Assembly: GCA_963576725.1 (NCBI GenBank)
Contig: OY755237.1
Span: 62,532,979 to 62,596,978, forward strand
Direction of reading: 5' to 3'
DNA length: 64,000 nucleotides
Source: Azorinus chamasolen
Taxonomy: Eukaryota > Mollusca > Bivalvia > Cardiida > Solecurtidae
In this document: piece by piece, positions 272 to 63,840 of the stretch
Layout of the letters: each line of letters starts with the position of its first letter
Numbering within the stretch: position 1 is the first letter of the stretch
Notes under the pieces: generated by a model
Databases searched by the model: none
What the model was told of the DNA's origin: nothing
Seen by the model: the letters and a program-made list of their open reading frames with translations, nothing else
Made by a program: the position numbers and the translations under genes

Positions 272-500
272 TTAACCCATTCCCTCATATTGACGACTTT
301 TGACGACTCTGTAAAAGCCACTTTGTGAACCATTGTGATAAATAGAGCATTTGCTCCTATAGGAGCAAATGCTCTATTTATCACAATGGTTTCTAACTAA
401 AAAATTCTAAAAAATTTCCTTTTCTCTAGTTAATGCTCCTTTTCGGTAGATTTATTCAAAGAGGTTGTATCTAAAAATAGCCTATGAGGTAATGGGTTAA
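272..500 (-). mobile_element. TTAA-B MITE, full length (229 bp)
   Basis: The element starts TTAACCCATTCCCTCATA and ends TATGAGGTAATGGGTTAA. Its centre is a perfect palindrome at 328-391, symmetric about CTCCTATAGGAG. The outer shoulders, including TTTTCGGTAGATTTATTC, are family-specific and not palindromic. A short reading frame on the minus strand across it is only a translation of the hairpin. Confidence 0.92.
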
Positions 501-515
501 TATTAAGTACATGTA

Positions 516-708
516 TACAGTAAAGACCCTCTAAACTGGAATTTCACCATTTTAGTATCAATGTTGACATTTAATGCACGGTGAAAGTCATACAGAGGGC
601 TACCAAAGCTTTGTGTATGACTTTCACCTTGCATTAAGCAACCACCTGCCTGAAAGTATCTAAATTCTTCTTTACTAAATGTCTGGTTTAGAAGGTTTAT
701 TTTCTGTA
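516..708 (+). mobile_element. TA-E MITE (193 bp)
   Basis: TA-flanked ends (TACAGTAAAGACC and TTATTTTCTGTA) enclose an imperfect hairpin built on GTGAAAGTCATACAGA and its complement. The right TIR is worn. Assignment to pogo-like MITEs is inferred from the TA flanks and CAGT tips. Confidence 0.8.
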
Positions 709-936
709 CATACTTGTTATAGAAGCATTATTAGGCTGTGAGTTAAATAGTCAATGAACTGCTTTTTAAAGGGAGTTAACTTTTGCGTAGTTACGTGCTT
801 TTATATATTGGAGGTATTCCGAAATGTTTATTGTTGAGCAAAGAAAGCAGGTGTGCTGATTTACTTTTCATTTTGTTTATCTCAGTTTTTAGAGATGCTT
901 AAATTAATGTGGTTTATTTTCACTATTTTGTTTGAA

Positions 937-1184
937 TTAACCCTATACTCCAAAAATACACCTTTCTGTGCCTTTGCGAACAGAGTAGACCCAGATCAGA
1001 TGACTCATAAAGGAGTCTTCTGATTAGGGTCTGCTCTGTTTGCTTATGATATGATATAGATATGGTTCTACAGTGTCTGCCATTGCAAAAGATTCCTGTG
1101 TCCATGTGCTATTATAACTGTTAATCTAATTAATATGCATGACATCATTATTTCTCACATGAATATTCATGGAGTAAAGGGTTA
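937..1184 (+). mobile_element. TTAA-A MITE (248 bp)
   Basis: It runs from TTAACCCTATACTCC to CATGGAGTAAAGGGTTA. The palindrome lies near the left end (about 980-1042), followed by the long A/T-rich shoulder with ATGACATCATTATTTCT that marks family A. Confidence 0.88.
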
Positions 1185-1661
1185 CATGAACATAGTGTAT
1201 GTGTATATCAACTATTCATGATATGGATGTGTTGTTATTTATACTATATATATATATGTATGTATATAGTGGTTAAATATTTGGTTATGTATTATATATT
1301 ATTATGATGATGTTAATTATAGTGATAAAAACTGCAAGTTACAACAGGTGATATTGAGGAAGTGAAACCTATATTTACTGGGCTGTGAGAAAAATACTGT
1401 CACCAAAAAACCCCAACCTGTCACCACATCCTGCATGTATCTGGTCAAGGTCAACAATGTTATCACAAATGCTGATTAGTGTCAGAATTTATATCTTTAT
1501 CAAATGCTGTAACATGTCAAACAATGTACATTGTAGATTGGCACTGGATTCAATTATTTTGAAATACTTATTTTAGATGCCTTTGAAAAAGCTGAATTAA
1601 ATATTTCAAAGTTTGGAACATTAATTGTTTGTTTATTTATTTGTATCAAGGTCTTACCGTT
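1185..1661. other. A/T-rich spacer with TA microsatellite
   Basis: I see no gene or recognisable MITE here. A short TA/TATG tract lies at about 1243-1270. The 63-codon frame in this stretch has no supporting features. Confidence 0.6.
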
Positions 1662-1911
1662 TTAACCCTTCACTTGCTATTCACGTCAATATACCTACCT
1701 GTAAATAGTGAAGACCCAGATGAGACAGCTCCTGCAGGAGCTGTCTCATCAGGGTCTGTACTATTTACAAGTTGATTGTGCAACCAGTGCACTCCACAGC
1801 AGTGATTGCACAGCGAAATACTTGTACACAGTGAAGATATATGTAATTATACAACAGGGCATGGGTAAAGAAGGAGAAATGTATTTTGAAATTCAGCAAG
1901 AGAAGGGTTAA
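1662..1911 (+). mobile_element. TTAA-C MITE, full length (250 bp)
   Basis: Ends are TTAACCCTTC and AGAAGGGTTAA. The palindrome centre is AGCTCCTGCAGGAGCT within the stem GTAAATAGTGAAGACCCAGA. Four further copies in the window are exactly 250 bp and one is partial, so family C looks young. The 67-codon frame seen in four copies begins at a GTG and changes amino acids freely between copies, so it is not a gene. Confidence 0.95.
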
Positions 1912-2159
1912 CAGTGTTTCAGTAATATCAACATTCAGCTAATTAGAAGTCGAGGAAGACACCGAAGGTTGTTTCCTTGCACAAAAATTTCATTGTTCTG
2001 TGCACAAAACACCTGGGAAGAACAACTGAAAGCCAGCTGGAGGCTTCCTCATATGAAAAATAACTTAATTTTATAATTATTTTGATATGAAACATTTTAC
2101 ATGTGAAATATCGAATCAAATCATCACATAAAGTTAATTTATAACCCATTACTTGTTGT

Positions 2160-2227
2160 AAATCAGAGTAGACCCTGATTCAGGTACTCCTAATGGAGCC
2201 TTATGATCAGAGTATGCACTGTTTGCT
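2160..2227. mobile_element. Degraded TTAA-A palindrome fragment
   Basis: Worn arms (CAGAGTAGACCCTGATTC and its partner ending CACTGTTTGC) without element ends. It abuts the chimeric element that follows. Confidence 0.6.
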
Positions 2228-2228
2228 T

Positions 2229-2583
2229 TTAACTCTTCGCTTGCTATTCACGTCAATATACCTACCTGTAAATAGTGAAGACCCAGATGAGACAGCTCCT
2301 GTAGGAGCTGTCTCATCAGGGTCTGCACTATTTACAAGTTGATTGTGCAACCAATGCATTCCACAGCAGTGATTGCATTTTTAGATCCAACCTCTTTGAA
2401 TAAATCTACCGAAAAGGAGCATTACCCAGAGAAAAGGAAATTTTTAGAATTTTGTAGTTTGAACCCATTGTGATAAATAGAGCATTTGCTCCTATAGGAG
2501 CAAATGCTCAATTTATCACAATGGGTTCAAGAAGTGACTATTACAGAGGCTTAGAAAGGTGTATTTATGGAGGAAAGGGTTAA
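2229..2583 (+). mobile_element. Chimeric TTAA MITE: C head, B middle, A-like tail
   Basis: A single TTAA-to-TTAA unit of 355 bp. Bases 2229-2377 match family C through its palindrome. From about 2378 the sequence is family B, including the palindrome at about 2465-2527 around CTCCTATAGGAG. The last 33 bases (AGAAAGGTGTATTTATGG, then AGGAAAGGGTTAA) match a family A end. It therefore carries two different hairpins. Confidence 0.85.
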
Positions 2584-2657
2584 GCAACCACCTCCTTATT
2601 TAAGACTCTTATGCTCAATAAATGAATGTTCGATTAGGATAGGCTCTACTGTATTTT
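2584..2657 (+). mobile_element. TA-F MITE, right end only
   Basis: GCAACCACCTCC through TCTACTGTA is the right part of family F. The preceding TTAA chimera begins where the F consensus has its own internal TTAA (GCATTAAGCAACC), so F was probably an insertion target. Confidence 0.7.
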
Positions 2658-2764
2658 GTTGCTGTATGGTATTTTATGGGCTTAATGCTTTTACCTGGTA
2701 GAAGAAACTAAACACACTTACATTATGCTCATACTGATATGAACAGTTTTATGGATATACGATA

Positions 2765-2897
2765 AAACCTGGTTAAGTAAAGAAGAATAGAAAATGTTTT
2801 AGGCAGTTGGCTTCTTAATGCAAGGTGAAAGTAATGCAGAAAGCTCCCAGAGGAGTTGTGTGCATGACTTTCACCCTGCATTATGCTGCCACCTGTC
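2765..2897 (+). mobile_element. TA-E MITE, interrupted
   Basis: The hairpin arms TAATGCAAGGTGAAAGTAA and TGACTTTCACCCTGCATTA are visible. The right arm runs into a family A remnant at a TTAA in CACCTGTCTTAA. Confidence 0.7.
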
Positions 2898-3044
2898 TTA
2901 ACCCTTTATTCAATGAATATTCATGTAAAAAATATTTACATCATAAATAGTAATTTTATTATTTTTTGTATCGGCACATGAGCACACGCATTTTTAGCCT
3001 TTTTTGCAAGCACATAGAAATGTGTATTTATGGAGTAAAGGTCA
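2898..3044 (-). mobile_element. TTAA-A MITE lacking its hairpin
   Basis: It starts TTAACCCTTTATTCAATGAA and ends ATGGAGTAAAGG. The whole central palindrome is missing, leaving TTTTTTGCAAGCACATAG at the junction. Loss of just the hairpin fits deletion by replication slippage. Confidence 0.75.
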
Positions 3045-3079
3045 AGGACAGATAATAATACTTGTTTGAGTGTTCAAAT

Positions 3080-3143
3080 GAGCAATTAATCTAATATCAT
3101 TATGTCATTATTTATTATAAGAATATTCATGGCATAAAGGGTT
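3080..3143 (+). mobile_element. TTAA-A MITE, right end fragment
   Basis: Matches the last ~60 bases of family A (ATTATGTCATTATTT... through CATAAAGGGTTAA). No left part is present. Confidence 0.65.
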
Positions 3144-3210
3144 AATATTCATGTACATGTAATAGGGACCATTACACCATTATGCTCACTGACAGAATTA
3201 TGCCTCATTA

Positions 3211-4834
3211 TACCCCCACAAACAGAGTTTGAGGGGTGTATACTGGAATCAGCCTGTCGGTTGGTCGGTCGTTGGACGTCGGTCGTTGGTCTGTCCGCAA
3301 AATCTTGTACTTTCAACTTCTCCTTCAGTTTCAACCTGATTCATTTGATACTTGGCATAAATGTTACTCAGGTGTAGTAGATGTGCAAGACACAAATTTC
3401 AAGTCTCTGTGACCTTGACCTTGACCTTTGGCCTTGAAATTTGTCTTGAAATTGGCAGGCAAAATCTTGTACTTTGAACTCCTCCTTCACTTTCAACCTG
3501 ATTCACTTGATACTTGGCATAAATGTTATTCAGGAGTAGTAGATGTGTAAGACACAAATTTCAGGTCTCTGTGACCTTGACCTTTGGCCTTGAAATTGGT
3601 CTTGAAATTGGCAGGCAAAACCTTGTACTTTGAACTCCTCCTTCACTTTCAACCTGATTCACTTGATACTTGGCATAAATGTTACTCAGGAGTAGTAGAT
3701 GTGCAAGACACAAATTTCAAGTCTGTGACCTTGACCTTGACCTTTGGCCTTGAAATTGGTCTTGAAATTGGCAGGCAAAATCTTGTACTTTGAACTCCTC
3801 CTTCAATTTCAACCTGATTCACTTGATACTTGGCATAAATGTTACTCAGGAGTAGTAGATGTGCAAGACACAAATTTCAAATCTCTGTGACCTTGACCTT
3901 TGGCCTTGAAATTGGTCTTAAAATTGGCAGGCAAAATCTTGTACTTTGAACTCCTCCTTCACTTTCAACCTGATTCACTTGATACTTGGCATAAATGTTA
4001 CTTAGGAGTAGTAGATGTGCAAGACACAAATTTCAGGTCTCTGTGACCTTGACCTTGACCTTTGGCCTTGAAATTGGTCTTGAAATTGGCAGGTAAAATC
4101 TTGTACTTTAAACTCCTCCTTCACTTTCAACCCGATTCACTTGATACTTGGCATAAATGTTACTCAGGAGTAGTATATGTGCAAGGCACAAATTTCAGGT
4201 CTCTGTGACCTTGACCTTGAAATTGGCAGGCAAAATCTTGTACTTTGAACTCCTCCTTCACTTTCAACCTGATTCACTTGATACTTGGCATAAATGTTAC
4301 TCAGGAGTAGTAAAATATCTGTGACCTTGACCTTTGGCCTTGAAATTGGTCTTAAAATTGGCAGGCAAAATCTTGTCGGCGAACTCCTCCTTCACTTTCA
4401 ACCTGATTTACTTGATACTTGGCATAAATGTTACTCAGGAGTAGTAGATGTGCAAGACACAAATTTCAGGTCTTGTCCGGAGCATATATCCTATACTTTG
4501 TTATCTAGCATTACCAAACCTGTTGTGTCAATACATATTGGGTAGTAGATATTCAGGTCTCTGTGACCTTGAACTTAATACCTGGCCTTGAAATGGAAAA
4601 AGAACCAGTGTCATTCTGCAAAATCGGACCAGCGCGAACATTTTCATTTTGGCATGAAACATGGGGATTTCGTGTCACAAATCCTCCTTCATTTTTAAAG
4701 TTTTCATATGTTTGTTGCAAGCATTGCAGAATTATCTCTTCTTTAACTTTGAGTATTTATGTGTTTTAGTCTTGTTACATGGATAGTTGGTGTCACAAAC
4801 TTGGATTCGCAATCAAAGCTGCCATGTGGGGGTA
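3211..4834 (+). mobile_element. Satellite-carrying TIR element 1
   Basis: Perfect 10-bp terminal inverted repeats, TACCCCCACA at 3211-3220 and TGTGGGGGTA at 4825-4834, bound 1.6 kb. The left end is followed by GGTCGGTCGTTGG-type sequence, then a tandem array, then unique sequence. It has no coding capacity. Short satellite units inside TIRs recall the non-autonomous 'pearl'-type elements described from bivalves; that link is from memory and unverified. Confidence 0.75.
3297..4470 (+). repeat. Tandem array, 8 units of about 156-162 bp
   Basis: Unit marker AATCTTGTAC recurs with spacings of 162, 156, 160, 156, 162, 137 and 135 bases; the last unit has AATCTTGTCG. The two short spacings are internal deletions. 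Each unit carries TGTGACCTTGACC, often followed by another TTGACC. Apparent proteins reading TFGLEIGLEIG are translations of the array. Confidence 0.93.
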
Positions 4835-4875
4835 TTCATCACCTTTAATGATAGTTCTAGTTGAAAATCCTATAT

Positions 4876-5060
4876 ACCCGTTTCCAACATCCAGGTACTT
4901 GAGGATTACCATTTTCACTGCAAAAAGGCGTCAGTACACGAGGTAAACGTGTTTTCACGCATCAAACAGAGTAGACCCAGATCAGATGGCTCCTATAGGG
5001 GCCGTCTGATCAGGGTCTGCTAGGTTTACACCCGTTTCCAACATCCAGGTACTTGAGGAT
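4876..5060. repeat. 31-bp direct repeat flanking a TTAA-A fragment
   Basis: An identical 31-bp sequence (starting ACCCGTTTCCAACATCC) occurs at 4876-4906 and 5030-5060. The 123 bp between holds a family A shoulder and an intact palindrome (about 4963-5026, CTCCTATAGGGG centre). This is far longer than a TTAA target duplication, so repair-linked insertion is more likely than normal transposition. Confidence 0.85.
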
Positions 5061-13889: not shown

Positions 13890-14280
13890 AATGTTTTTCT
13901 ACGCTTTTGCAAACAGAGTAGAACCAGATCAGGCGGCTCCTGTAGGAGCAGTCTGGATCTGCTCTGTTTGCTTATGATATAATATAGACAATCCTACAGT
14001 TTCTGCCATGGCTAAACATTCCTGTACTATTATAAAAATAAATCTGGGTCCATGCTTATAAAACTTTTAGTTGAGTCTGAGTTCGTTCTCAAGTTTTTGA
14101 TTGGTCAGATTTGAGCCTTTGGCTCAAATCTGACCAATCAAAAGCTTGAGAACTCAAATCTGACCAATCAAAAGCTTGCGAACGAACTCAGACTCAACTA
14201 AAACGCTTTATAAGCAGTGACCCAGATGATATTCATGAGGTCGTTGTTACGTTCATGAATATTCATGTTGGAAATATTTA
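13890..14280 (+). mobile_element. TTAA-A MITE split by an HP-J insertion
   Basis: The A palindrome (about 13913-13974) and first shoulder up to TTATAAAAATAAAT are followed by HP-J, after which the A shoulder resumes at ATATTCATGA. The right terminus is degraded. Confidence 0.8.
14044..14225. mobile_element. HP-J hairpin element, nested in family A
   Basis: Inverted ends CTGGGTCCATGCTTATAAA (14044-14062) and its near-complement (14207-14225). The whole element is one long hairpin around GAGCCTTTGGCTC. The right arm carries a tandem duplication of about 30 bp (CAAATCTGACCAATCAAAAG twice), so the arms are now unequal. The superfamily is not evident. Confidence 0.85.
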
Positions 14281-15010: not shown

Positions 15011-15235
15011 TAACGCTTACTATGCGGGGCACGAGTAGACCCAGATGAGAGGGCTCCTAGAGGAACCCATACTGTGCGGGGCACAATTCACTATTGCCGT
15101 TTGCAAACAGTGTAGATCCAGATGAGAGGGCTCCTAAAGGAGCCCTCTCATCAGGGTCTACACTTTGTCATGTTGCACTATCTTTAGAACAATCCCTAAA
15201 TATTCACCGTAGGCCTGGCCTGTTACTATCAAATG
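15011..15235 (+). mobile_element. TTAA-G MITE with internal duplication
   Basis: The G left end (GCTTACTATGCGGGGCACGA) appears again at about 15068 (ACTGTGCGGGGCACAATTC), each followed by a hairpin arm. The second hairpin (15103-15165) is nearly perfect around GGCTCCTAAAGGAGCC. The right end is missing. Confidence 0.75.
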
Positions 15236-20467: not shown

Positions 20468-20672
20468 TACAGTAAAACCTCTCTATAACGGCCGCTAAAT
20501 TACATCAATTACTCGTATTTTGTATTAAAGGCAGGTGGGCAAGGTGAAAGTAAAACAGAACGCTCCTATAGGAGCGTTCTGTTTTACTTTCACCTTGCTT
20601 TAAGCAACCACCTGCCCTAAATACCAACTAATTAACATAATTTAGTGGCCGTTTTAGAGAGGTTTTACATTA
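20468..20672 (+). mobile_element. TA-D MITE (205 bp)
   Basis: TACAGTAAAACCTCTC to GAGAGGTTTTACATTA. The left palindrome arm lost about 10 bp (GGTGGGCAAGG in place of GGTGGCTGCTTAAAGCAAGG). Confidence 0.92.
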
Positions 20673-22539: not shown

Positions 22540-22735
22540 TTAACCTTTTCCTACATATAAACGTGTTTACACGCATTTGCAAACAAAGCAGACCCAGATC
22601 AGACGGATCGTACAGGAGCCGTCTGACCAGGATCTGCTCTGTTTGCTTACAGGTGGTAGCTTAATGCATCACCTTTGTGAGCTTTCTGTATTACTTTTGC
22701 CCAGCATGAAACAACCGCCTGCTTTTACAGACACG
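22540..22735 (+). mobile_element. TTAA-A left half fused to TA-F hairpin
   Basis: A tip and palindrome (to about 22648) run directly into GGTGGTAGCTTAATGCATCA and the matching arm TTTTGCCCAGCATGAAACAA of family F. The junction is within TGCTTACAGGTGG. Confidence 0.78.
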
Positions 22736-24615: not shown

Positions 24616-24929
24616 TACTAAGAAGCCTTTTAACGCTTTTGGAAACAGAGTAGACTCAGATCATACAGTTCCTGTGGGGAATGACTGACAAGGGTATGCT
24701 CTGTTTGCTTATAAAACATTACAAATATTATGCAACAGTTTATTTCATGATTAAATATTCCTTTGTTCATATCGAGGGTTTGGCGCAAAACTATTGTAAC
24801 TCCTTCACAAAGTGAAGGAGTTACAATAGTTTTGCACCAAGCCCTCGATATGTCATTATGAATAATTAGTTGATTATTATTCATAAATTCTTTATTTCTT
24901 ACTAGAATATCTCAGGGAGTAAAGGGTAA
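24616..24929 (+). mobile_element. TTAA-A MITE split by hairpin P
   Basis: Worn left tip (AGCCTTTTAACGC), palindrome at about 24640-24709, shoulder to CTTTGTTCATAT, hairpin P, then ATATGTCATTATGAATAATT to CAGGGAGTAAAGGGTAAA. Confidence 0.85.
24773..24847. mobile_element. HP-P: minimal 75-bp hairpin insert
   Basis: The element is almost nothing but two 36-bp arms (CGAGGGTTTGGCGCAAAAC... and complement) around AAA, with two mismatches. It interrupts family A and is flanked by ATAT at 24769-24772 and 24848-24851. Uninterrupted A copies read TTCATATG once. The superfamily is unknown. Confidence 0.92.
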
Positions 24930-26399: not shown

Positions 26400-26903
26400 A
26401 TTAACTCTTTACTCTGTATATACCCTTGCGAACGGAGAAGCCTAAATTAGATTGCTCGTTTGATACAAAATTAGATAAGACAGGATTAGATACATGTACA
26501 AATATACAATTTATTTAAAGTCGGTAAGACAATCAACACACAGCATACGCACTCAGGAGCTTTGGAACCGAATGTAGAAGCCGTATGGTAATGATCTGTG
26601 TCCATGCTTTTAAAGCTTTTTAGTTGAGTCTGAGTTTGTTCTCAAGCTTTTGATTTGTCAGATTTGAGCCAAAGGCTCAAATCTGACCAATCAAAAGCTT
26701 GAGAACGAATTCAGACTCAACTAAAATGTTTTATAAGCATGGATACAGGTCTGTTTACATGTACGTATGGGACAATGTAGATCTGAGTCGATAGTTTCTG
26801 CCATGACCAAACCTGCATGTGTTCATATGAAAATCGAAAAAAAATCATCTATTTGATATTCATGGAGTTATATTTTGTTATATGAATATTTATTAGGTCA
26901 AGG
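26400..26903 (+). mobile_element. TTAA-A MITE remnant split by HP-J
   Basis: A-like tip ATTAACTCTTTACTCTG at 26400 and later shoulder GATAGTTTCTGCCATGACCA to TTAGGTCAAGGG. The hairpin of A is gone; HP-J lies between. Confidence 0.6.
26596..26748. mobile_element. HP-J hairpin element (153 bp)
   Basis: CTGTGTCCATGCTT and its near-complement AAGCATGGATACAG at the ends. Hairpin centre GAGCCAAAGGCTC. It lacks the 30-bp arm duplication seen at 14044. Confidence 0.88.
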
Positions 26904-27515: not shown

Positions 27516-27604
27516 CTCCACCAAACCCTATCATGTGACCACTCTTTAGAATCGTCTCTTCGAGACGATTCTAAAGAGTGGTCACATCATAGGGTTTGGT
27601 GGAG
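27516..27604. mobile_element. HP-K hairpin, nearly perfect (89 bp)
   Basis: Arms of 43 bp (CTCCACCAAACCCTAT... and complement) around TTC, with a single mismatch. The right flank GAATGACGATTATAGTATTT is shared with other K copies, so the mobile unit is longer than the hairpin. Confidence 0.93.
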
Positions 27605-28126: not shown

Positions 28127-28312
28127 TTGCAAATGAAAAAGAATCTTATTCTTGGAAGGATTAAGGCAGAAATAATCACAAAACCTAACAGCTGTGTGCC
28201 GTATTGTATAAGACTTCGTTCCCTTTCTGGAGCAAGAGTTTCCAGGAACAGTTCAGTGCAAAAGGTTTGTACATGTAGCTACATCATTTGGTGTTAACAG
28301 TAGATCTTCTCC

Positions 28313-28704
28313 GAAGTCGCCATTCATTTATTGAACAATAGAAGTCTTACAAAGCAGGTGGTAGCTTAATGCAGATCAAATGTAATACAGAAAGCTCCTA
28401 TAGCAGGCTTCGGCATTACTTTTGACCTGTATTAAACTACCACATGCTTTTTAAGACTTCTATTGTTCAATAAATGAATGGCGACTTTTGACGACTCTAT
28501 AAAAGTCACTCTGTGAAACTATTGTGATAAATAGAGCATTTGGCCCTATATGAGCAAATACTCTATTAATCACAATTGTTTCAAACTACAAAATTCTAAA
28601 ATTTTCATTTCCTCTAGATAATGCTCCTTTTCGGTAGATTTATTCAAAGGAGTTGTATCTAAAAATAGCCTATGAGGTAATGGGTTAAGGCAGGTTCTAC
28701 TGTA
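28313..28704 (+). mobile_element. TA-F MITE interrupted by TTAA-B
   Basis: F arms are unusually extended: GTCGCCATTCATTTATTGAA and its complement pair outside the usual hairpin. The right tip AAGGCAGGTTCTACTGTA follows the B insert. Confidence 0.82.
28488..28688 (-). mobile_element. TTAA-B MITE nested in TA-F, left tip deleted
   Basis: TTTTGACGACTCTATAAAAG through the palindrome (about 28512-28576) to GAGGTAATGGGTTAA. The right TTAA lies in the F context CTTAAG..CAGG. Confidence 0.88.
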
Positions 28705-38410: not shown

Positions 38411-38642
38411 TAAACCCATTTGCTCCCGCAATCCCATATATGGGACGTAGGCAAACAGTGTAGACTCTGATCAGACGCCGCATAATGCGGCGTCTGATCA
38501 GAGTCTACACTGTTTGCTGATAGGAATTTCAATATAAAACAAACGAAAATTGAAAATTTAGGCCAGGCACCCCTTAAATAAAAAAAATTGGACTAATCCA
38601 ATATATAAACATGGAAGAATCCACTGGTAGCAAATGGGTTAA
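38411..38642 (+). mobile_element. TTAA-S MITE with a perfect 67-bp palindrome
   Basis: Ends AAACCCATTTGCTCCC and GGTAGCAAATGGGTTAA. The palindrome at 38451-38517 has two perfect 33-bp arms (GCAAACAGTGTAGACTCTGA...) around one base. A second small palindrome TCCCATATATGGGA lies at 38432-38445. The only copy of S seen here. Confidence 0.9.
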
Positions 38643-38823: not shown

Positions 38824-39031
38824 TATAGTAAAACCTCTCTAAACCGGAAGTTAAATTTAGTATAAATATCGGTCTTGGAGACAGGTGGTAGCTTAATGCA
38901 GGGTGAAAGTCATGCAGAAAGCTCCTCTAGGAGCTTTCTGCATGACTTTCACACTGCATTAAGCAGCCACTTGCCTGAAAGTATCCAAATTCTTCTCTAT
39001 TAGAATTCCGGTTTAAAGGGGTTTTACTGTA
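38824..39031 (+). mobile_element. TA-E MITE, full length (208 bp)
   Basis: TATAGTAAAACCTCTCTAAA to AGGGGTTTTACTGTA. Palindrome of about 100 bp around AGCTCCTCTAGGAGCT almost perfect. Reference copy for E. Confidence 0.94.
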
Positions 39032-40400: not shown

Positions 40401-40646
40401 TTAACCCTTTCGCCGCCGCAGTCGCATAAATGCACCACGACAAATAGTGCAGTCCCAGATCAGACGCCGCCTTGAAAAGGCGGCGTCTGATCTGGGACTG
40501 CACTATTTGTCTCATTCGCTATTTATATGTTTATACTTTATTCCTTTGAAATGTACATTTATTTATCCAATTTCCTTATTGTATCGAATGATTTAACAAA
40601 ATTGGATTGCAGACGACAATTATAAATTTGGCACCGAAAGGGTTAA
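40401..40646 (+). mobile_element. TTAA-I MITE with a perfect 73-bp palindrome (246 bp)
   Basis: TTAACCCTTTCGCCGCC to GGCACCGAAAGGGTTAA. Palindrome 40439-40511 has perfect 35-bp arms (GACAAATAGTGCAGTCCCAG...) around GAA. Shares its right TTAA with a G element. Confidence 0.94.
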
Positions 40647-43592: not shown

Positions 43593-44444
43593 GACATATT
43601 CGCGTTGATCTTTGTAATATTTGTTAAAGAAAGGCTGATTCTGGGTTACCTCTCAGTCCAGATTTATGTGTCAATATCTGTTAGCATTTTTGCGTCAACA
43701 TTTCACCGCCCGCCATTTATCAGCGGAGGCATACACGTTTAACACAGCACTGCTAACACCGGTGGGAATTATTTGATCAGCAATGGGTAAAACGGTGTGA
43801 ACTAAATCTATCTATCGATTATTGGCAGAAAACAATGCTATTCATAAGTTATGCCGTTGACAGATATTTAATAGCTGATAATAGGGTAGAATATTAATTT
43901 ATTCAACTCGGCTAACCGGTCAGCGCGTCAGGTAACGTGTCACATATTCAGTCCCAACAAAACCTACTTGACTTTTCACATGGATTATTTCATTATTGTA
44001 CTTGCTTTCTATTTAAAAGCGCCATTGAAGGGAATGATTGACAGAACCCATGTCGGCGTTAAATTGAATTAAATGGACTTACATAGAGAAGAAGAGAGGA
44101 CACAACAAGTGTATTGTCATTTTCAAATGATAAGTCGTAGCCCAAGTTCTAATTCATTGAGATATATATTAAGTTTAAAGAACGACAAAAATGAATTGTG
44201 AATAATGGATTTAAGACGGTCGAGAAAGAGATCGACAGAATTTACAATGGTTGGAGGCTTTAAAGACTATGACAGGGTGATTTAACGCGGGGATAAGCCA
44301 CTGTCAACAGAAGATTCTTTTGAACCGACAAACAATTCAAATAATGTAGTGTATTTTGGTACGTTCACATTGAATACCTCCAAGGATATTATGACAGTAT
44401 AATGCTGTTTTGAATATGGATAAAAACCAGGGGACTGTCTAACC
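43593..44444. other. MITE-free region upstream of the gene
   Basis: No repeat seen. A TATA-like TATTTAAAAG lies at 44010-44019, about 430 bp before the start codon; I cannot show that it is used. The frame of the downstream gene is closed by a TAA at 44421-44423. Confidence 0.5.
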
Positions 44445-46205
44445 ATGAAACTTAATACTAGAGCGCCTTTACATACAAGGTCGTCACTACATCGACCGAA
44501 AGTTTCGTTCAATGTGGATGACGATATGTCATCGAGCAAGGACTCGGATTCGAGCCCTCCTCTGCCTATTGTGGAATTAAAACCTTTCGTACAAAAAGTA
44601 TGGAGACGTGAAAAGAGCTTACCAAGTTTTTATAATAAAGTTGATAACACCTACAGCAATGGTCGATCTTCAAGTCGAAGTAAGGAATCAGAGCCTGAAG
44701 TTGAGGTCAAGACAGAGGATCTTTCTCCTCCACCTCCGCGAACATCGAACTCGCTACCATCATCACTCTCGTCACAACGATTGTTTCAATTTCAAATGGC
44801 AAGCCCACTTGGAGATTCTAGATCGCAGAAAGACTATCCCGTTTTTGGCTTACAACAGGAGCCTGGAGTTCGCCCGAAATCAAGAATTCATCCAGCAGCT
44901 GATTCAAAAACGGAACGACACCCTGAGCATGCTGTTAGTTTGATACCCGGTTTTATAACTCGCGAGGACAGGGAGAAAACAACACTAATTGATATATCAG
45001 AAGGTGACTTTACCAACCGATCGTATAGTTGTAGTCCCAAGAGCGTCCGACAAGAGGATACAAAAAAGTTTGAGGATATGAAAGTGACAGGAGAGAATGT
45101 TACTCGCGTTTTGCCTCCAAAAGGTTATGCATGTTCTAATCCATGGCGTGCAAACGGCAGTTATCAGGGGATCCGTCATGGCAGTCCCGCCAGTATGATG
45201 TATTTCCATCGCACGACGTACGCGAAACCTAAGAAAAGAGGCGACGCGCAAGTGTATGACAATCTGGATCGGAAAGGAGTCCTACCGTCCCTTACAGTGC
45301 AGGCAAAGAGTCTTAAAAAGCGAATTTCTAAACACTATGATGAAAATCTAAGCGAAGACTACCGGGACTATAGAGATGCGTACGATGTAAATGGAAGGCA
45401 CAGTATAGGTGGTATTGAAAACTCCCTCAAAGTTCTCAGTGAGCAGGGCTCGCCAACAAAGATAGAGAGAATGCTTACTTTTCAACTGGAACTTAACCTG
45501 AACCGGTTCCGAACGTTTAAAGACTATTCCCCACTGGAGACTAGTCCGTCTGAACTAGCAAAGTATTATTCCACCCCTGCGTTTAATCTAACGCAAGGGG
45601 AGGTTGATATACGCAAAGGGTTGCAGTCAAACACATCGAAAACTAGGAGAGCAAATTTACGAAATATTAATCCCCTATCTAAAGAAGCGCTTATGTCTTT
45701 AACAACTTCAACAGATTTTCTCAAGCTACAGCACAGAAAGACTCAGCTGTTTGACCAGTTGAGAGCGTTAGAAAACAGAATGCCAGAGTACGGCGTGTTT
45801 GAAAGGAACGACTCTAGGGGGATGTCTAACGACAAGGAAAAGATATACATGACTCCATCAGAAGACGAGTTAGTTGTTCCCAATGACACACCAAGATCTT
45901 ATCTGGACTCACGTATAAGTTTCAAACCAACTGAAGTTGCCATAGAGGAACAGACGAAGGAGACACAAACCTCCCCAGAAAACGTGAGTGAGGAGGAAGC
46001 ACCGAATAAGAAGAAAACAGAACATCCTAATGGCAACAATATAATGGCAAGTACGCCAAGGAAGGGCAAGATGGCACAAAGACTAGAAATTAGTAAAGAG
46101 AATATAGAACCCAAACTTCCAATCGCGAATGGTGTTGGATACGATACAGACGGAAAGACGTTTATTACATCGGACACCAGGGCACATATAACTGTCACCG
46201 GATAA
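44445..46205 (+). CDS. Uncharacterised, largely disordered protein (586 aa)
   Basis: I do not recognise the family. The frame is long, uninterrupted and free of repeats. The ATG has a favourable A at -3 and an in-frame stop 24 bases upstream, so the start is well supported. No signal peptide or membrane segment is visible. The protein is hydrophilic and rich in Ser, Pro, Lys and Glu: an acidic Ser/Pro stretch (about 28-41), a segment with VWRREKSLPSFY (52-63), a Pro run (SPPPP, 94-98), a Tyr/Asp-rich stretch (HYDENLSEDYRDYRDAY, 297-313), a probable helix (about 423-446, LKLQHRKTQLFDQLRALENR) and a Lys/Glu-rich tail. KETQT (505-509) matches the dynein light chain LC8-binding pattern, KEN (551-553) the APC/C degron, and SLIP (165-168) the SxIP pattern. 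All three are short and unproven. A scaffold or cytoskeletal regulator is possible. Further exons could exist. Confidence 0.85.
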   Translation: MKLNTRAPLHTRSSLHRPKVSFNVDDDMSSSKDSDSSPPLPIVELKPFVQKVWRREKSLPSFYNKVDNTYSNGRSSSRSKESEPEVEVKTEDLSPPPPRTSNSLPSSLSSQRLFQFQMASPLGDSRSQKDYPVFGLQQEPGVRPKSRIHPAADSKTERHPEHAVSLIPGFITREDREKTTLIDISEGDFTNRSYSCSPKSVRQEDTKKFEDMKVTGENVTRVLPPKGYACSNPWRANGSYQGIRHGSPASMMYFHRTTYAKPKKRGDAQVYDNLDRKGVLPSLTVQAKSLKKRISKHYDENLSEDYRDYRDAYDVNGRHSIGGIENSLKVLSEQGSPTKIERMLTFQLELNLNRFRTFKDYSPLETSPSELAKYYSTPAFNLTQGEVDIRKGLQSNTSKTRRANLRNINPLSKEALMSLTTSTDFLKLQHRKTQLFDQLRALENRMPEYGVFERNDSRGMSNDKEKIYMTPSEDELVVPNDTPRSYLDSRISFKPTEVAIEEQTKETQTSPENVSEEEAPNKKKTEHPNGNNIMASTPRKGKMAQRLEISKENIEPKLPIANGVGYDTDGKTFITSDTRAHITVTG

Positions 46206-49800: not shown

Positions 49801-50051
49801 TTAACCCTTTACTCCATGAATATTCATGTATGACATAATGCCATCGTGAACATTAATAAATTTATTTTTTTGCAATCACACAGCGGTCACAGGAATAGTT
49901 CGCCATGGCAGAAACTGCAGAACCATATCTATATTATTTCATAAGCAAACAGAGGAGACCCTGATCAGACGGCTCCTGTAGGAGCCGTCTGATCTTGGTC
50001 TACTCTGTTTGCAAAGGCGTAGAAAGGCTTGTTCATAGGTTAAAGTGTTAA
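49801..50051 (-). mobile_element. TTAA-A MITE, full length (251 bp)
   Basis: TTAACCCTTTACTCCATGAA to TAGGTTAAAGTGTTAA. Clean palindrome 49947-50012 around CTCCTGTAGGAG. Confidence 0.93.
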
Positions 50052-50494: not shown

Positions 50495-50730
50495 TAGCAA
50501 AGGACAACTTTGTGATTAGATCAAGATGAGACGCAAAGGAAAGTTGTGTATCATCTGGATTCAAACAAGTTGACTCCCGGGTTGTACGCTTGAAAAACAA
50601 TGATACCACTGTCCATTTTGCTGAATGCAGGTCAAACGTAATGCAGAAAGCTCCTATAAGAACTTTCTGCATTACTTTTGCCCTTCATTAAACATTCATT
50701 GTCCATTTTGACATACGAAGCATGTTCTAC
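50495..50730. mobile_element. TTAA-H hairpin followed by TA-F hairpin
   Basis: Worn H arms at 50505-50575, then a good F hairpin (GCAGGTCAAACGTAATGC... around CTCCTATAAGAAC) at 50625-50695 with no F ends. Confidence 0.65.
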
Positions 50731-51590: not shown

Positions 51591-51803
51591 TTAACCTTTA
51601 GCCTGCTATGGGCGGATGAGTGAATACCTATGCAAACAGTTTGGATCCAGATGAGACGCCGAGTAACTCGGCGTCTCATCAGGATCCAAACTGTTTGACA
51701 AATTGATTGCATTGTGGTAGACACATTGATATAACTTGAATTTTGAAAATGTAGTAGGTGAAAAATTATGTAAAAATAATTTGCTCAGCAGGCTAAAGGT
51801 TAA
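51591..51803 (+). mobile_element. TTAA-H variant with clean ends (213 bp)
   Basis: A perfect 17-bp TIR, TTAACCTTTAGCCTGCT and its complement. Palindrome 51633-51697 (CAAACAGTTTGGATCCAGA... around GCCGAGTAACTCGGC) differs between arms only at the conserved A/T site. Shoulders differ from other H copies. Probably the youngest H-type element here. Confidence 0.95.
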
Positions 51804-55943: not shown

Positions 55944-56152
55944 TGCAGTGAACCCTCTCTGAAAGGACCACTTAATGGGTAAATAGTAGTGTCTTTAAAA
56001 GCAGATGGTTGCTTAATACAGGACGAAAGTAATGCAGAAAGCTCCTACAGGAGCTTTCTGCATTACTTTCATCCTGCATTAAGCGACCACATGCCTCTAA
56101 GACTCAGAATTATACCTCGTTTTGATGGTCGCATTAGAGGGGGTTTACTGTA
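55944..56152 (+). mobile_element. TA-F MITE (209 bp)
   Basis: TGCAGTGAACCCTCTC to GAGGGGGTTTACTGTA. Near-perfect hairpin around AGCTCCTACAGGAGCT. Confidence 0.92.
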
Positions 56153-56777: not shown

Positions 56778-57028
56778 TTAACCCTTTACCCAATAGCCTG
56801 TTTCTAGTTTTGAAGACATATGACCACTTAAAGCAGGTTGAAAGTAAAGCAGAATGCGCATTAAGGCGCATTCTGCTTTACTTTCAGCCTGCTTTAAGCT
56901 ACCACCCACTAGGATATAGAAAATATTTATTATGCAATATGTTCATGACTGTATGAATTTGAACTATTTTCTTCAGCGGAGGAATAAATCAAACACGCTA
57001 AAAGCCGCTTCTATCAGGTAAAGGGTTA
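56778..57028 (+). mobile_element. TTAA-U MITE carrying a TA-family hairpin (251 bp)
   Basis: Ends TTAACCCTTTACCCAATAG and CAGGTAAAGGGTTAA are TTAA-type. Its palindrome at 56827-56898 (CTTAAAGCAGGTTGAAAG... paired with CTTTCAGCCTGCTTTAAG) is the D/F type, with the following TACCACC also shared. Arms are 33 bp with one T/C difference. Single copy here. Confidence 0.92.
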
Positions 57029-57278
57029 AACAAACTCCGGGAAGTGTATGGGAGTTCGATATAAATTCTTATAACCCGTTTGACTATCATTATTCTGACA
57101 CTAGTGTTTTATTATTCTATTATTATATGACCGGTGTTTATCGAAATTTCGCGTGAATAATGTATCCCCATTATTTGCTACTAGTGTTTCTTTCATTATT
57201 CTTCGAACACTAAGTTAGAAATAAAGTTTGTATATTATCTGAGACAATATTTCGATTTAGTGCAATTTAATTTCTTTC
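57029..57278. other. Spacer
   Basis: Two similar stretches share TATTATT..ACTAGTGTTT, but nothing further is recognised. Confidence 0.45.
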
Positions 57279-57776: not shown

Positions 57777-57777
57777 C

Positions 57778-58526: not shown

Positions 58527-58700
58527 CTAATCTATGACACGTATTTGCAAATAACTTGGATTCATATTTGACACAGGGTAACCCGGCGTATCATCAGGAT
58601 CCAAACTGTTTGACACTCGGTCAGTGCTTTCTCAAAAGCTTGATTGAATCGGAAGTAGTCAATATTGTATTAGATCTAAATTGGATCAGGTAGAAAATGC
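58523..58700 (+). mobile_element. TTAA-H MITE, right end worn
   Basis: TTAACTAATCTATGACACG, hairpin around CAGGGTAACCCGG, shoulder AAAAGCTTGATTGAATCGGA. Confidence 0.78.
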
Positions 58701-58793
58701 ACGTGAAAGACGGGTCTATATATAGGATTTACTATGTTGTCCAGTCCCGTCGCGTTGCTTTACAGTCAGAAAGCTTTTACAAAGAGTACATAC

Positions 58794-58865
58794 AGTAGAA
58801 CTTATCTTAAGCGGCCATTAAAAACTGGTCTAATTATGGGTTTGTAAGGCATGTGGTATGCGCAT
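58794..58865 (+). mobile_element. TA-F MITE, left part
   Basis: TACAGTAGAACTTATC, then GCGGCCATTAAAAACTGG to AAGGCATGTGGTATGC. Confidence 0.75.
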
Positions 58866-58956
58866 GTTTCCTATGGACCACAGCGTAATTGGTAGCGAGT
58901 ATCAAATAGTCAACTCTCGATTATTCGAGATTTTAATAAAGAAGAAAGCAGTGTGA

Positions 58957-59102
58957 AAAACAGCTTAATGCAAGATTAATGTCGTGCAGAAAGCTCCTCT
59001 GGGAGGTTTCTGCACGACATTCATCTTGCATTAAGCTGTCACCTGTCTTGAAGATCGATAATGATACTTATTTGAATGTTCGCATAATCGTGATTTAACT
59101 GT
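58957..59102 (+). mobile_element. TA-E MITE, left end missing, strongly co-varied hairpin
   Basis: Palindrome 58961-59048: left AAGATTAATGTCGTGCAG, right CTGCACGACATTCATCTT. Both arms share at least four changes from the family's AGGGTGAAAGTCATGCAG. Confidence 0.88.
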
Positions 59103-59640
59103 GTTTGCTCATCGTATGGAAAGGGTAATACAATCGTTTACCATTGCTGTAGATAAGAACCGCATTAAGGAAATCTAAGTAAAGCATTTCTTATATTTCT
59201 GTGCCAAAACGTATCTTGCTGTTACTCACTACTCTCTCAGGGGTGATTCTAATGAGTGACCGATATATAAGAGTTTGGCTGAGAAACATGTGCTTTTGAT
59301 AGAGCAGTACGCATCTTACTGTATCTAAAGACCTGATTCAGCCTTAGAAGTAATGAATATTTAGGATCTGCCAATGTTATCGCATATATGTATATTCTCA
59401 GCTGTATAACTAATGTGTGGACTTGTTTATGACATTGCCCACATTGTGTTTTGGTAATGTATCGAGGAAGACGTGAACTATGCCGTGTGACATAAAACTG
59501 TTGGCATATTATCAAAGCCTATGTCTCTGTCAGTGTGACATTGTTAATTCAACTGTATCTTCTTGTTAAAGCATAAGTAGATATAGGCGAGCTCTAAAAT
59601 ATATTTGCCTTCCTCTGAAATGTAATGATTCTAAGCTAAT
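59103..59640. other. Non-repetitive spacer
   Basis: No repeat recognised. The 88-codon minus-strand frame at 59249 has no supporting evidence. Confidence 0.45.
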
Positions 59641-59760
59641 CCATGTGCAAAGTACATCTATATGAGTGGAAGAAAATCTTTCGTCCGGTATTAAGCTATC
59701 ACCTGAGTGTTAGGTATCCTTCTAGCTGTCGCTTTAAATAGATATGTTTTTATTGTACAC
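59641..59760 (+). mobile_element. TA-F/E right-end fragment
   Basis: CGGTATTAAGCTATCACCTG and TAGATATGTTTTTATTGTAC. Confidence 0.5.
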
Positions 59761-59894
59761 GTAACATACTGACTCTTCGTGTTGTTGTATATACATGTAC
59801 TTTATTACTATAATATTTCGCAAACAGTCATGATTTGCCACATCGTTTTACAGATATTGTACACGTATGTTCGAATATACATTGTATGCAGAAT

Positions 59895-59950
59895 CACACA
59901 CGCTTTATTTCCCACTAAACCCTATGTTGAGACAACTCTTTAGAATACAG
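59895..59950. mobile_element. HP-K left arm remnant
   Basis: TTTCCCACTAAACCCTATG, then ACTCTTTAGAAT. Confidence 0.6.
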
Positions 59951-59954
59951 TGGT

Positions 59955-60072
59955 TCTAGGATAATCTAGGAACTTTCTGCATGACATTCACACTGCATTA
60001 AGCAGCCACCTGCCTAAAAGTATCTAGATTCTGCTCTACTAAAATTCCGGTTTAGAAAGGTTTTACTTTATA
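59955..60072 (+). mobile_element. TA-E MITE, right half
   Basis: TAGGAACTTTCTGCATGACA to AGAAAGGTTTTACTTTA. Confidence 0.8.
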
Positions 60073-60074
60073 CA

Positions 60075-60598
60075 CTGTTCAAAATGGGCAGAGTTTGCAA
60101 TGAATATCCGTGGAGTAAAGATGTAAAGGCCAGGGTTTAACTTGATTAAAGACTGCGTAAATCTGCAATTCTTTGTTAAAATCTACACTCTTACATTCGC
60201 CTGTTGAAAGTCATAATACAAATCTAATCGAAATATTAACGTGTTAATTTGTCAATTTTCCACCTGTAAATGCTAGCAATTACCGAGATAGAAGCTACCT
60301 TATTCATTCTGTTCACTACTGGTTCGGTGTAATATACTTGAATAGCGATAAGGTTAAATGCCAGTTTGCGAGTAGGCTTGTAGTCTATACATGTCAATTT
60401 CACACATACTGCAAACTTTGAAAGCAGTTTGGACCCATATGAGACTTGGACTAACTTGTCGTCTCAGAACGATCCTGTCCGCATTGGTACACTGGTCACG
60501 ATTTTAAAAGAAATGTAAGACAGCATCTACACTGAGAATTGAAACATAAGACATTTTATGCCTAGCAGTGTCACTTTGTTTGTTAAGTGGTAGCTCTT
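60075..60598. other. Spacer with A tail and worn H hairpin
   Basis: An A right end at 60095-60130 and an H-type hairpin at about 60415-60480 (AGCAGTTTGGACCCATATGA). Confidence 0.5.
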
Positions 60599-60599
60599 A

Positions 60600-60775
60600 A
60601 ATGCCTGTAAAAAGTTATATCTGCTCAAATCTAGTTCAATTTTAAATACTTCCGATTCGATTAAGTTTATTTTAGACAGTATTGCTTGAGTGCTGATCAG
60701 AGTGGATCCTGATGAGACGCCGATTAACCCGGTCTCTCATTTGGATCCGATCTGTTTGCAAATGTTAATCAACGG
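60600..60775 (-). mobile_element. TTAA-H element, worn
   Basis: Shoulder TACTTCCGATTCGATTAAG, hairpin GAGTGGATCCTGATGAGACG around GCCGATTAACCCGG. Confidence 0.72.
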
Positions 60776-60902
60776 GAGCTAAATACTTTAGCGGAATAAG
60801 CGTAACCAGTCTTATCGACACCGAGGACTATTTGAGACGAGTAATTTTACCCGGCGTTTAATTCTATTTGCTATTCTGTAAGATATGGGTCACAGAACTT
60901 AC

Positions 60903-61111
60903 ATCCCTTAATCGCAACCTGACTCGTATTTTGTAAACGACATAAACATGATAAACCTAGACGAAACGCCGAGTTACTCGGTGTCTCAACAGGATCCAAA
61001 CTATTTGACACTCGGTCAATAATTTCTTAAAACCCTGACTGAATCGGAATTAGATCACATATTCGAATTTAAGCAAACAATATATTTTTTTAAATTCCGG
61101 GATAAGGGTTG
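60903..61111 (+). mobile_element. TTAA-H MITE (about 209 bp)
   Basis: CATCCCTTAATCGCAACCTG to CCGGGATAAGGGTTGA. Hairpin around GCCGAGTTACTCGG, shoulder GGTCAATAATTTCTTAAAAC. Confidence 0.8.
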
Positions 61112-61224
61112 AGATATTGGTCTAGTGTCTGTTTTACCATTGTAATGCCGTAGGCTTGTTTTTTCGATAGAAACTGTATACTAATTCGGATTTTGATATA
61201 CATAATCTTCTATTTCTTTTCAAA

Positions 61225-61310
61225 TACTAAAGCAGAGGGCAAAACAGTGTTGATCCTGACGTGATGCCACTTTACCAGGCATCTCAGCTTGATCCAGTCC
61301 TCGAGTATAC
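61225..61310. mobile_element. H-type hairpin, worn
   Basis: AAAACAGTGTTGATCCTGAC and CAGCTTGATCCAGTCCTCG. Confidence 0.5.
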
Positions 61311-61494
61311 GCCTGTTACATTGTGAATATTATTAAGGCCAGTTCCATTTAAACAGATTGGTTTAAATCAGAAGCAAACTTAAGCACCGTTTGGTCTGAG
61401 GCATGCGTGAGGTACATGTAGAAGAAAAACGAAAATTTAGGAGAAATAGACAGACAACGGCAACCCAATATTTGCAAACAAAACGTGTAAGCTG

Positions 61495-61918
61495 AACCGA
61501 TTACCATACAGGCTATTTTAGACGCTTACTCTTTCAATAAATCTATTGAAAAAGAAAACATTAACCTATTCCCTCATAGGCTATATTTAGATCCAACCAC
61601 TTTGAATAAGTCTACCGAAAAGGAGCATTAACTAGAGAAAAGGAAACTTTTAGAATTTTGTAGTTTGAAACTATTGTGATAAATAGAGCATTTGCTCCTA
61701 TAGGAGCAAATGCTCTATTTATCACAATAGTTTTAATAGGTGACTTTTGCAGAGGCGTCAAAAGGCGTTAATATGAGGGAATGGGTTAATTAGAAAAAAA
61801 GGAAATGGTGATAACTGTTTAGTTTTGAAACCATTGTAATAAATAGAGCATTTTCTCCATAGTTTTAAAAAAGTGGCATTTACATAGGCGTCAAAAGGCG
61901 TCAATATCAGGGAATTAA
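61495..61918 (+). mobile_element. TTAA-B MITE containing a second TTAA-B
   Basis: Outer sequence from ACCGATTACCATACAGGC to GGGAATTAATT. Its own hairpin is half lost (GCATTTTCTCCATAG). Confidence 0.88.
61561..61789 (+). mobile_element. TTAA-B MITE, inner, near-perfect (229 bp)
   Basis: TTAACCTATTCCCTCATAGG to GAGGGAATGGGTTAA. Perfect palindrome around GCTCCTATAGGAGC. It sits in the outer copy's CATTAACTAGAGAAAAGG site, with TTAA on both sides. Confidence 0.96.
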
Positions 61919-62025
61919 TTAAAAAGGTAAACGAATAACATTTATTGGTACAATGTACATGTGTAGGCAAAAAAGGTATATGTCAAATGAGTGTCAGTTC
62001 AACTGATACATGTAACAAGATCCTG

Positions 62026-62275
62026 ACTAACCCTTTATGTGATGAATATTCATGTAAAAAAGAATAACATCATGCATGGATGCTAATTAGACAATTTTTT
62101 ATTCTAGTATATGACCATATGAATCTGTTGCACTTGCAGAAACCACAGACTCAGATTTATATTATATAATAAGCAAAGCTAATAGACCCTGATCATACTG
62201 CTCCTACATATACCGTCTGATCTGGGTCTAATCTGTTTGCATAGGCATACAAATGTCTCTAGCAGCTAAATGGTT
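62026..62275 (-). mobile_element. TTAA-A MITE (250 bp)
   Basis: CTAACCCTTTATGTGATGAA to AGCAGCTAAATGGTTAGG. Palindrome worn. Confidence 0.82.
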
Positions 62276-62298
62276 AGGAAAGAGACATACATAAGACA

Positions 62299-62540
62299 TA
62301 GAGTAAAACCTCTCTTAACCGGAATTTTATTTTACTATAATATCGGCATTGGAGACAGGTGGCAGCTTAATTCAGGGTAACGTGCAGTGTGAAAATGCAG
62401 GATGGCAGCTTAAAGCAGGATGAAAGTCATATAGAAAGCTCCCATAGCTTTCTGCGTGACTTTCACCCTGCATTAAGCAGCCACCAGCCTATCTAACACC
62501 TTATCCACTAGAATTCCAGTTTAGATAGGTTTTTACTGTA
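62299..62540 (+). mobile_element. TA-E MITE with partial duplication (242 bp)
   Basis: TAGAGTAAAACCTCTC to GATAGGTTTTTACTGTA. The left arm start occurs twice (GGTGGCAGCTTAATTCAGGG and GATGGCAGCTTAAAGCAGGA). Confidence 0.88.
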
Positions 62541-62713
62541 TTTAAGCAGTTCATTATCGTCTGATTCAGATATTAAGGTAGAGTTTCCTTTCAATTTCCT
62601 TTTCAAAGATATAAAAAGAATATACATGTATTACGTACGGTTAGCCTGGGTAATCGATGTATCACCCGATCTTTTTGCGATGGTTGTCAGTGATTAGTCT
62701 ATTATGGCAAAAT

Positions 62714-62978
62714 GAATAAACCATTTACCATATAGAGACACGTTAGTTGAATTTACAAACATAGTATACCCCGATCAGATGGCTCCTGTCGGAATCGTCT
62801 AATCAGCGTCTACTCTGTTTGCTTATGGAATGATATAAATTTGATTCTACTGTTTATGTCAATGTAGTACATTCCGGTGTTCATATTCCATTAGAATATG
62901 TTCAGCTAATTAATTCAGCTAATTAATTTTCACACATTTATTATTTGTTTCATGCATATTCATCAAGTAAAGTGCTGA
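62714..62978 (+). mobile_element. TTAA-A MITE (about 265 bp)
   Basis: AAACCATTTACCATATAGAG to CATCAAGTAAAGTGCTGAA. The shoulder has a 15-bp tandem duplication of TTCAGCTAATTAA. Confidence 0.8.
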
Positions 62979-63028
62979 ATTGACACTTTCAGTAAACCCC
63001 CACCAATGCTACAATTTTGTAAGTAAAT

Positions 63029-63234
63029 ATTAAATCTCCCCTAAAGCAGACGTTAGATTTAGTATAAATATCGATATTGTAGACAGGTTGCAGCTTAATG
63101 CAGGGTGAAAGTCATACAGAAAGCTCCTCTAGGAGCTTTCTGTATGTCTTTCACCCTGCATTCAGCAGTCATTTGCCTAAAAGTATCTAAATTCTTCTCT
63201 TCTAGAATTCCGGTTTAGAGGGGTTTTACTATTA
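63029..63234 (+). mobile_element. TA-E MITE (206 bp)
   Basis: ATTAAATCTCCCCTAAAGCA to GAGGGGTTTTACTATTA. Near-perfect hairpin around AGCTCCTCTAGGAGCT; left tip worn. Confidence 0.88.
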
Positions 63235-63330
63235 ATGTTGCCATGCATTAAGTCACCACCGGTAGGCTATTTAAGACCCAGATTTCAACCGCCTTTTTAT
63301 ATCATTTTAGCGGGGGTTCAATGCACTTAC
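63235..63330 (+). mobile_element. TA-F MITE, right end
   Basis: GCCATGCATTAAGTCACCAC to TTTAGCGGGGGTTCAATG. Confidence 0.55.
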
Positions 63331-63537
63331 ATTGTAAGGATTGCCGCGCTCAAGGGAAATGACGTGTAATTTTGCAAGTTAGAAATCGTTTTGTTCGATA
63401 CCATTTTCAAAAACAAATCTCATTTCATATGTCATTGTGTGAATATTAACAATTAGCCTCATGTAGTTTCCTACTTATATCAATATACATTTACATCCGA
63501 TTAAATGTAGTTCACACTTTTGAGAAACTCTAGACCG
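63331..63537. other. Spacer
   Basis: No gene or repeat recognised. Confidence 0.4.
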
Positions 63538-63605
63538 AGCGTCAAACAGCCTGGTTCCTGATCAGACGCCGTGTCTCATCTGGATCCAAGCTGTTTGACA
63601 CTGCC
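63538..63605. mobile_element. TTAA-H hairpin
   Basis: GTCAAACAGCCTGGTTCCTG pairs with GGATCCAAGCTGTTTGAC; centre shortened (GACGCCGTGTCTC). Confidence 0.7.
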
Positions 63606-63643
63606 AATCTGATGGTGCCTGGTATGCGAAGAGTTAGATATTG

Positions 63644-63840
63644 TACAGTGAAACCTGTATAAGGCGAACAACAAAACGACGTGTAATTATGGGTATATAT
63701 GTAGGGCAGGTGGTAGCTTAATACAGGTCAAAAGTAATAGGAGCTTTCTGCATTACGTTTGACCTGTATTAAGCAACCACCTGCTTTTTAAGATGCCTGT
63801 GTCCAATTTATATAAGGTCGCTTAAGAAGGTGCTGCTGTA
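63644..63840 (+). mobile_element. TA-F MITE with shortened left arm (197 bp)
   Basis: TACAGTGAAACCTGTAT to AGAAGGTGCTGCTGTA. Left arm is cut (CAAAAGTAATAGGAGCTTTC). Confidence 0.87.

Follow-up and report, generated by a model that had tools for sequence, protein, structure and literature searches.

Families of miniature inverted-repeat transposable elements (MITEs) are classed by their tips, and the middles of such elements have mostly been taken as filler. A TTAA duplication with CCC termini defines the piggyBac type and a TA duplication with CAGT-type termini the pogo/Tigger type, and neither definition, to our knowledge, includes a near-perfect internal hairpin whose apex is shared. We have analysed a 64,000-nucleotide stretch of the genome of the bivalve Azorinus chamasolen (GCA_963576725.1, contig OY755237.1, positions 62,532,979 to 62,596,978 of the forward strand; hereafter the window, the one stretch from which our evidence is drawn), in which a core sequence, GCTCCTNNAGGAGC, lies at the tip of long hairpins within short non-coding elements flanked by TTAA or by TA. 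With TTAA flanks and CCC tips, or TA flanks and CAGTA tips, these elements resemble the piggyBac and pogo/Tigger types, respectively, as those types are usually defined. Repetitive extragenic palindromic (REP) sequences and the Angel-type hairpin MITEs of zebrafish are likewise abundant hairpin repeats, and we know of no apex common to dissimilar shoulder lineages in either. Two MITE-like consensus repeats have been described from the haemoglobin genes of Lucina pectinata, the first, 210 bp long, having inverted ends of 30 bp and at its centre a palindrome of 77 bp (96%), the second with a different, 68-bp palindrome that has a short segment in common with the first; target-site duplications were not identifiable by the authors, and the section dealing with the shared segment leaves it uninterpreted (PMC4732748). 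By description, and not letter by letter, the first consensus is built like the roughly 200-bp TA elements of the window, and a short segment common to two palindromic repeats is an observation of the same kind as ours. A precedent is MER6, a DNA-transposon MITE described as containing a conserved internal module from a different element class, the highly conserved domain of the short interspersed element (SINE) V (PMC6887750); whereas that module is SINE-derived, the module in A. chamasolen is a hairpin and occurs in MITEs of two classes. We consider it a serious possibility, put forward tentatively, that this hairpin is a likely transferable cassette, the apex of which may be read by one host factor serving both target-site classes.

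The initial annotation of the window had claimed that 12 fixed bases are shared by the hairpins of seven MITE families, four flanked by TTAA (A, B, C and G) and three by TA (D, E and F). The shared core is real, in that GCTCCTNNAGGAGC is present in 21 exact copies in the window and in none of 100 dinucleotide-preserving shuffles, and 68 sites are found when up to two mismatches are allowed. A census made by shoulder sequence alone, with arms aligned gap-free at 70% or more, so that decayed hairpins were missed, and with 54 unpaired arms excluded, yielded 93 hairpins with two recognised arms (56 of shoulder lineage X, 25 of Y and 12 of Z). The exact 14-nt middle was present in 19 of the 93, and the majority 14-nt middle was the exact core in every one of groups A to G, the usable middles of that length being 20/32 in A, 7/12 in B, 6/6 in C, 7/7 in D, 7/9 in E, 7/9 in F and 9/12 in G. 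The cores originally quoted for A, B, C, D and E were found letter for letter, whereas none of the 21 exact sites has the outer letters quoted for F or G, the cores of which are consensus readings from decayed copies.

The independence of the seven families, in contrast, was not upheld. The shoulders of A, C and G are alike, as are those of D, E and F, and the families sort into three independent lineages, X (A, C and G), Y (D, E and F) and Z (B). Shoulder similarity was at the test floor for all nine within-lineage pairs (p=0.0003), and the smallest p among 19 between-lineage pairs was 0.0497 (element K, described below, against B), which is unremarkable among 19; judged by their letters, X, Y and Z have no detectable similarity apart from the shared apex. 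The claim that chance convergence is implausible survives this reduction. In simulations of random hairpin tips, three lineages had the same 6-mer at a fixed place in 0 of 200,000 trials with seven lineages (X, Y, Z and four other palindromes of the window, at 14118/26671, 18744, 24809 and 27559, the core being absent from all four) and in 3 of 100,000 with 12; when placement was loose, the corresponding frequencies were 0.0007 and 0.004. Two lineages sharing some loosely placed 6-mer are not a rare event (0.14 with seven lineages), but the core sits at an identical fixed place in X, Y and Z hairpins, and chance or compositional convergence of hairpin tips is therefore highly improbable.

In size and ends the elements carrying these hairpins are MITEs (all positions of elements and of the family G hairpin are for the forward strand). 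The family B element at 272..500 (229 bp) has TTAA at both ends and a Z hairpin (323-396) with the exact core GCTCCTATAGGAGC at its apex (353..366); the family C element at 1662..1911 (250 bp) has TTAA at both ends and an X hairpin with the exact core GCTCCTGCAGGAGC at its apex (1728..1741); and the family A element at 49801..50051 (251 bp) also has TTAA at both ends and an X hairpin, with the exact core GCTCCTGTAGGAGC at 49972..49985. The hairpins had been placed at the centre of each element; they are indeed internal, but not always central, that of C lying closer to the left end and that of A closer to the right. Family G is known from its X-lineage hairpin alone (15103..15170, core 15130-15143), so that the TTAA flanks reported for four families are seen in three of them. 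Ends of the piggyBac type, TTAACCC..GGGTTAA, are found in B, C and the 252-bp element K, and A has TTAACCC on the left and a decayed GTGTTAA on the right. The elements of families D (20470..20670, core 20562-20575), E (38826..39029, core 38921-38934) and F (55946..56150, core 56041-56054) are about 200 bp long and have a Y hairpin and inverted CAGTA-type ends next to TA or a variant of it, the D element beginning with CAGTAAAACCTCTCTATAACGG on the left and ending in a variant of it on the right. The TA-type ends attributed to these families are thus present, the F example having TG in place of TA at its left end. With up to five mismatches in 20 nt allowed for the tip, a pogo/Tigger-type (Tc1/mariner) tip immediately preceded by TA was present on one or both sides in 20 of 35 Y hairpins and absent from the remaining 15, which include K and of which some are decayed or truncated.

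Element K (56778..57029) is a TTAA element with matching inverted tips and a Y hairpin otherwise typical of TA elements. Both arms of its hairpin match those of Y (left and right p=0.001, the test floor), and its flanks do not match the flanks of the 15 Y copies used (p=0.21 and 0.50), when six of six flanks from three Y controls did so (p=0.005, again the floor); the exact tip TTAACCCTTTMC occurs in K alone among the 35 Y centres. In families A and B, the right tips are similar beyond the terminal repeat in all three copy pairs compared (p=0.0005, 0.0037 and 0.0005), and the hairpin shoulders are dissimilar (p=0.38). Because a Y hairpin is joined to TTAA ends in K, and like right tips go with unlike hairpins in A and B, whole hairpins appear to behave as cassettes. 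X shoulders are carried by elements with different terminal sequences, for example A, C and H, the right ends of A and C being alike if the X arm is included (p=0.0017), and tip, shoulder and core vary in different combinations. Two further Y hairpins are of note. The region 58920-59090 (Y centre 58998) has a decayed core and a TTAACCC-like tip (two mismatches) on its right side only, and may be another case of a Y hairpin in a TTAA element. At 50610-50720 a Y hairpin lacks recognisable TA-type ends and lies between two nearly identical direct copies of CA[C/T]TGTCCATTTTG (14 bp, differing at one position); it could be a single case of insertion of a hairpin alone.

The hairpins differ between subfamilies in a manner that retains pairing. 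Differences on both arms against those on one arm numbered 6/0 (D-E), 7/0 (D-F) and 3/0 (E-F) in Y, summing to 16/0, and 5/1 (A-C), 3/2 (A-G), 4/1 with one other (C-G), 5/2 (A-H), 7/1 with one other (C-H) and 5/1 (G-H) in X, with a total of 29/8 and two others; the subfamily pairs overlap and are not independent, and the both-arm differences mostly retain pairing. Within copies, 424 changes fell on one arm and 59 on both (90 hairpins, K and two A-group copies with 17-nt middles being excluded). The paired differences between subfamilies imply that the source hairpins kept pairing, through selection or through copying between arms. Wholesale re-copying of arms is opposed by a mismatch between the arms at position 18 that is retained in the X subfamilies A, C, G and H and is visible in the printed copies (the script that counted arm differences oriented the arms by this position, so that its output alone is no proof of the mismatch). 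Five hairpins folded as DNA were all far more stable than their shuffles (z -11.4 to -14.6, the latter for the family B hairpin at 323-396). A reading of the hairpins as RNA genes found no support, there being zero matches to Rfam models at gathering scores. Tip instability was also considered as a sign of extrusion in vivo; in 117 loci the 14-nt core is touched by 32 deletions and the shoulder only by 34, a count on which we do not rely because long deletions and copies with other cores inflate it. In 13 Z loci (e.g. 12971, 14611 and 57627), seven deletions touch the core, six of them of 1-2 nt, and none is confined to the shoulder.

Our working hypothesis is that the apex is read, as a two-fold symmetric DNA site or as an extruded hairpin tip, by one host factor. 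A host factor is favoured because one transposase site common to elements of two target-site classes would be unexpected; the two-fold symmetry of the sequence, with its free centre, would agree with the earlier suggestion that a host or transposon factor reads the site. Pairing would have been under selection while source elements were active, its binding or processing would be the reason why the apex was acquired or retained, and whole hairpins may have been swapped between elements, template switching at extruded hairpins being the likeliest route. We infer that the core may itself have been exchanged, or be read by a host factor. If cassettes with a fixed apex do cross transposase classes, the middle of a MITE has a job and the apex becomes a 14-bp bait for the protein that reads it.

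Several observations weigh against this hypothesis. The core of K is GCGCATTAAGGCGC (56856-56869), so that this single copy documents transfer of a hairpin and not of the core; moreover, the right tip of K has a weak likeness to that of A beyond the terminal repeat (p=0.075) and none to that of B (p=0.50), its left tip has no convincing match in either (p 0.41 to 0.51), and the left tips of A and B are not alike (p=0.79). Arms of two lineages were joined in 0 of the 93 census hairpins; exchange must therefore concern whole hairpins or the apex of both arms jointly, and core-mediated recombination yielding mixed hairpins was rejected on this count. A module exchanged between unrelated MITEs, as first proposed, is accordingly supported by K and by A and B as regards whole hairpins, but not, given the lack of mixed hairpins and the different core of K, as regards the core by itself. 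Nor is the core consistently better preserved than the shoulders in dead copies, where core and shoulder matches were 0.838/0.852 in A, 0.958/0.948 in C, 0.889/0.819 in G, 0.940/0.924 in D, 0.869/0.909 in E, 0.869/0.846 in F and 0.917/0.933 in B, the core thus being higher in four of seven groups and lower in three. As the core decays about as the shoulders do, nothing clearly protects it after insertion, in-place selection on it was not seen, and the agreement between lineages was set in the source elements. Finally, the core is not essential and is replaceable, since X shoulders are also found with other cores, with the tips CCGAG, CCGCA and CCGCCTT beside GCTCCT. X shoulders flank the core CCGAGTAACTCGG at 51659-51671 in an H-type TTAA element (51591..51803), CCGCCTTGAAAAGGCGG at 40467..40483 and CCGCATAATGCGG at 38478..38490.

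Deep common descent would explain the shared apex without recent exchange of the core, if the X, Y and Z shoulders had diverged from one ancestral palindrome under a constraint on the apex alone. The identical place of the core in all three lineages is as expected, and X (family A) and Y both have CAGA two bases outside it; against this, shoulder similarity between lineages is at chance level and, within X, the shoulder has been kept while the core was replaced, which is opposite to what a frozen core amid drifting shoulders would give. We regard this explanation as unlikely. Clearly less probable still is a model in which the palindrome GCTCC-TNNA-GGAGC acts as a seed that primes fold-back copying of its flank, so that at every landing in a new element a further long hairpin arises, its shoulders arbitrary and its apex unchanged. 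Such a process would yield just the combination of one apex, dissimilar shoulders and near-perfect arms that is observed, and the majority arms of D, E, F and B are paired at all positions, but re-copying should have erased the position 18 mismatch, which is kept in A, C, G and H though the sequence on both sides of it has changed on both arms.

Fusion of densely packed elements by nesting and deletion, which would make K a product of scrambling and not of a cassette swap, we hold to be decidedly improbable. Fusions do occur in the window (near 22660 a Y arm adjoins an X hairpin, and near 28450 a TA element is joined to a B element), but the TTAA tips at the two ends of K match and neither of its flanks is detectably of the Y type, and one core on three sets of shoulders would be left unexplained.

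Beyond the window, CAGANNGCTCCTNNAGGAGCNNTCTG had no match in viral genome contigs or in prokaryote genome contigs. Looser patterns gave 65 loci in viral contigs, which we take to be chance matches: among the 52 found with full-core patterns (L014-L065) the best had 19 of 27 positions complementary, with the seven of the half-core counted in, and in the 13 others (L001-L013) a long hairpin was not seen, the comparison there being centred only roughly. The X apex, translated in frame, reads AP-x-GA, and a composed protein query with this reading matched at least 7,532 protein clusters at E up to 10 among 7,999 scored. All 120 matches listed for this query come from ENA, some of them on megabase contigs; they contain 159 sites with DPDQT or DPDQI followed by five residues, of which 112 are AP-x-GA. 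An NNA codon, as demanded by GCTCCTNNAGGAGC, could specify x in 111 of these 112, a measure of conservation that is biased in that the query included the apex. The flanking peptide varies by group among the listed matches (35, 39, 4, 4 and 38 other), and X thus sits in several contexts. Queries with the Y and Z readings found three relatives, two of Y (ESSYRSF) and one of Z (APIGA), both readings of the same core; as such a query needs three exact 5-residue words, absence elsewhere cannot be concluded from it. Given this word filter, Y and Z look much less widely distributed than X in that protein collection. A protein search with a G-type open reading frame gave no candidates. A literature search with core and shoulder strings returned nothing relevant, and no report of a hairpin apex common to TTAA and TA MITEs was found in the literature searched, most subscription papers lying outside it.

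A wider hypothesis can be framed, which is possible but on balance doubtful: a hairpin cassette with a fixed apex would be interchangeable among unrelated DNA transposons, acting in cis through a host factor that reads it, as their counterpart to the highly conserved domains of SINEs; it would be ancient in its X form and would have been taken up by both the TTAA and TA classes. The protein matches carry a practical warning for annotators, since some copies of the X hairpin can be read through in frame (giving readings like ANSVDPDQTAPxGAVWSGSTLFA), and its presence in thousands of public predicted proteins makes it a source of false gene models.

Other features of the window include two compound structures, an A-type element at 22540-22720 the X hairpin of which is followed directly by a Y hairpin beginning CAGGTGGTAGCTTAATGCA, and a TA-type element with a Y hairpin at 28297-28688, fused near CGACTT to a B element without the outer part of its right tip. 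A separate family of long palindromes with a different apex (TTTTGATTGGTCAGATTTGAGCC, 3-nt centre) is present at 14050-14190 and 26620-26720, and two palindromes of other sequence, also with 3-nt centres and with 20 of 20 inner positions paired, lie at 24786-24835 and 27536-27585. The longest open reading frame listed in the window, of 593 residues at 44424-46205, is probably a host exon.

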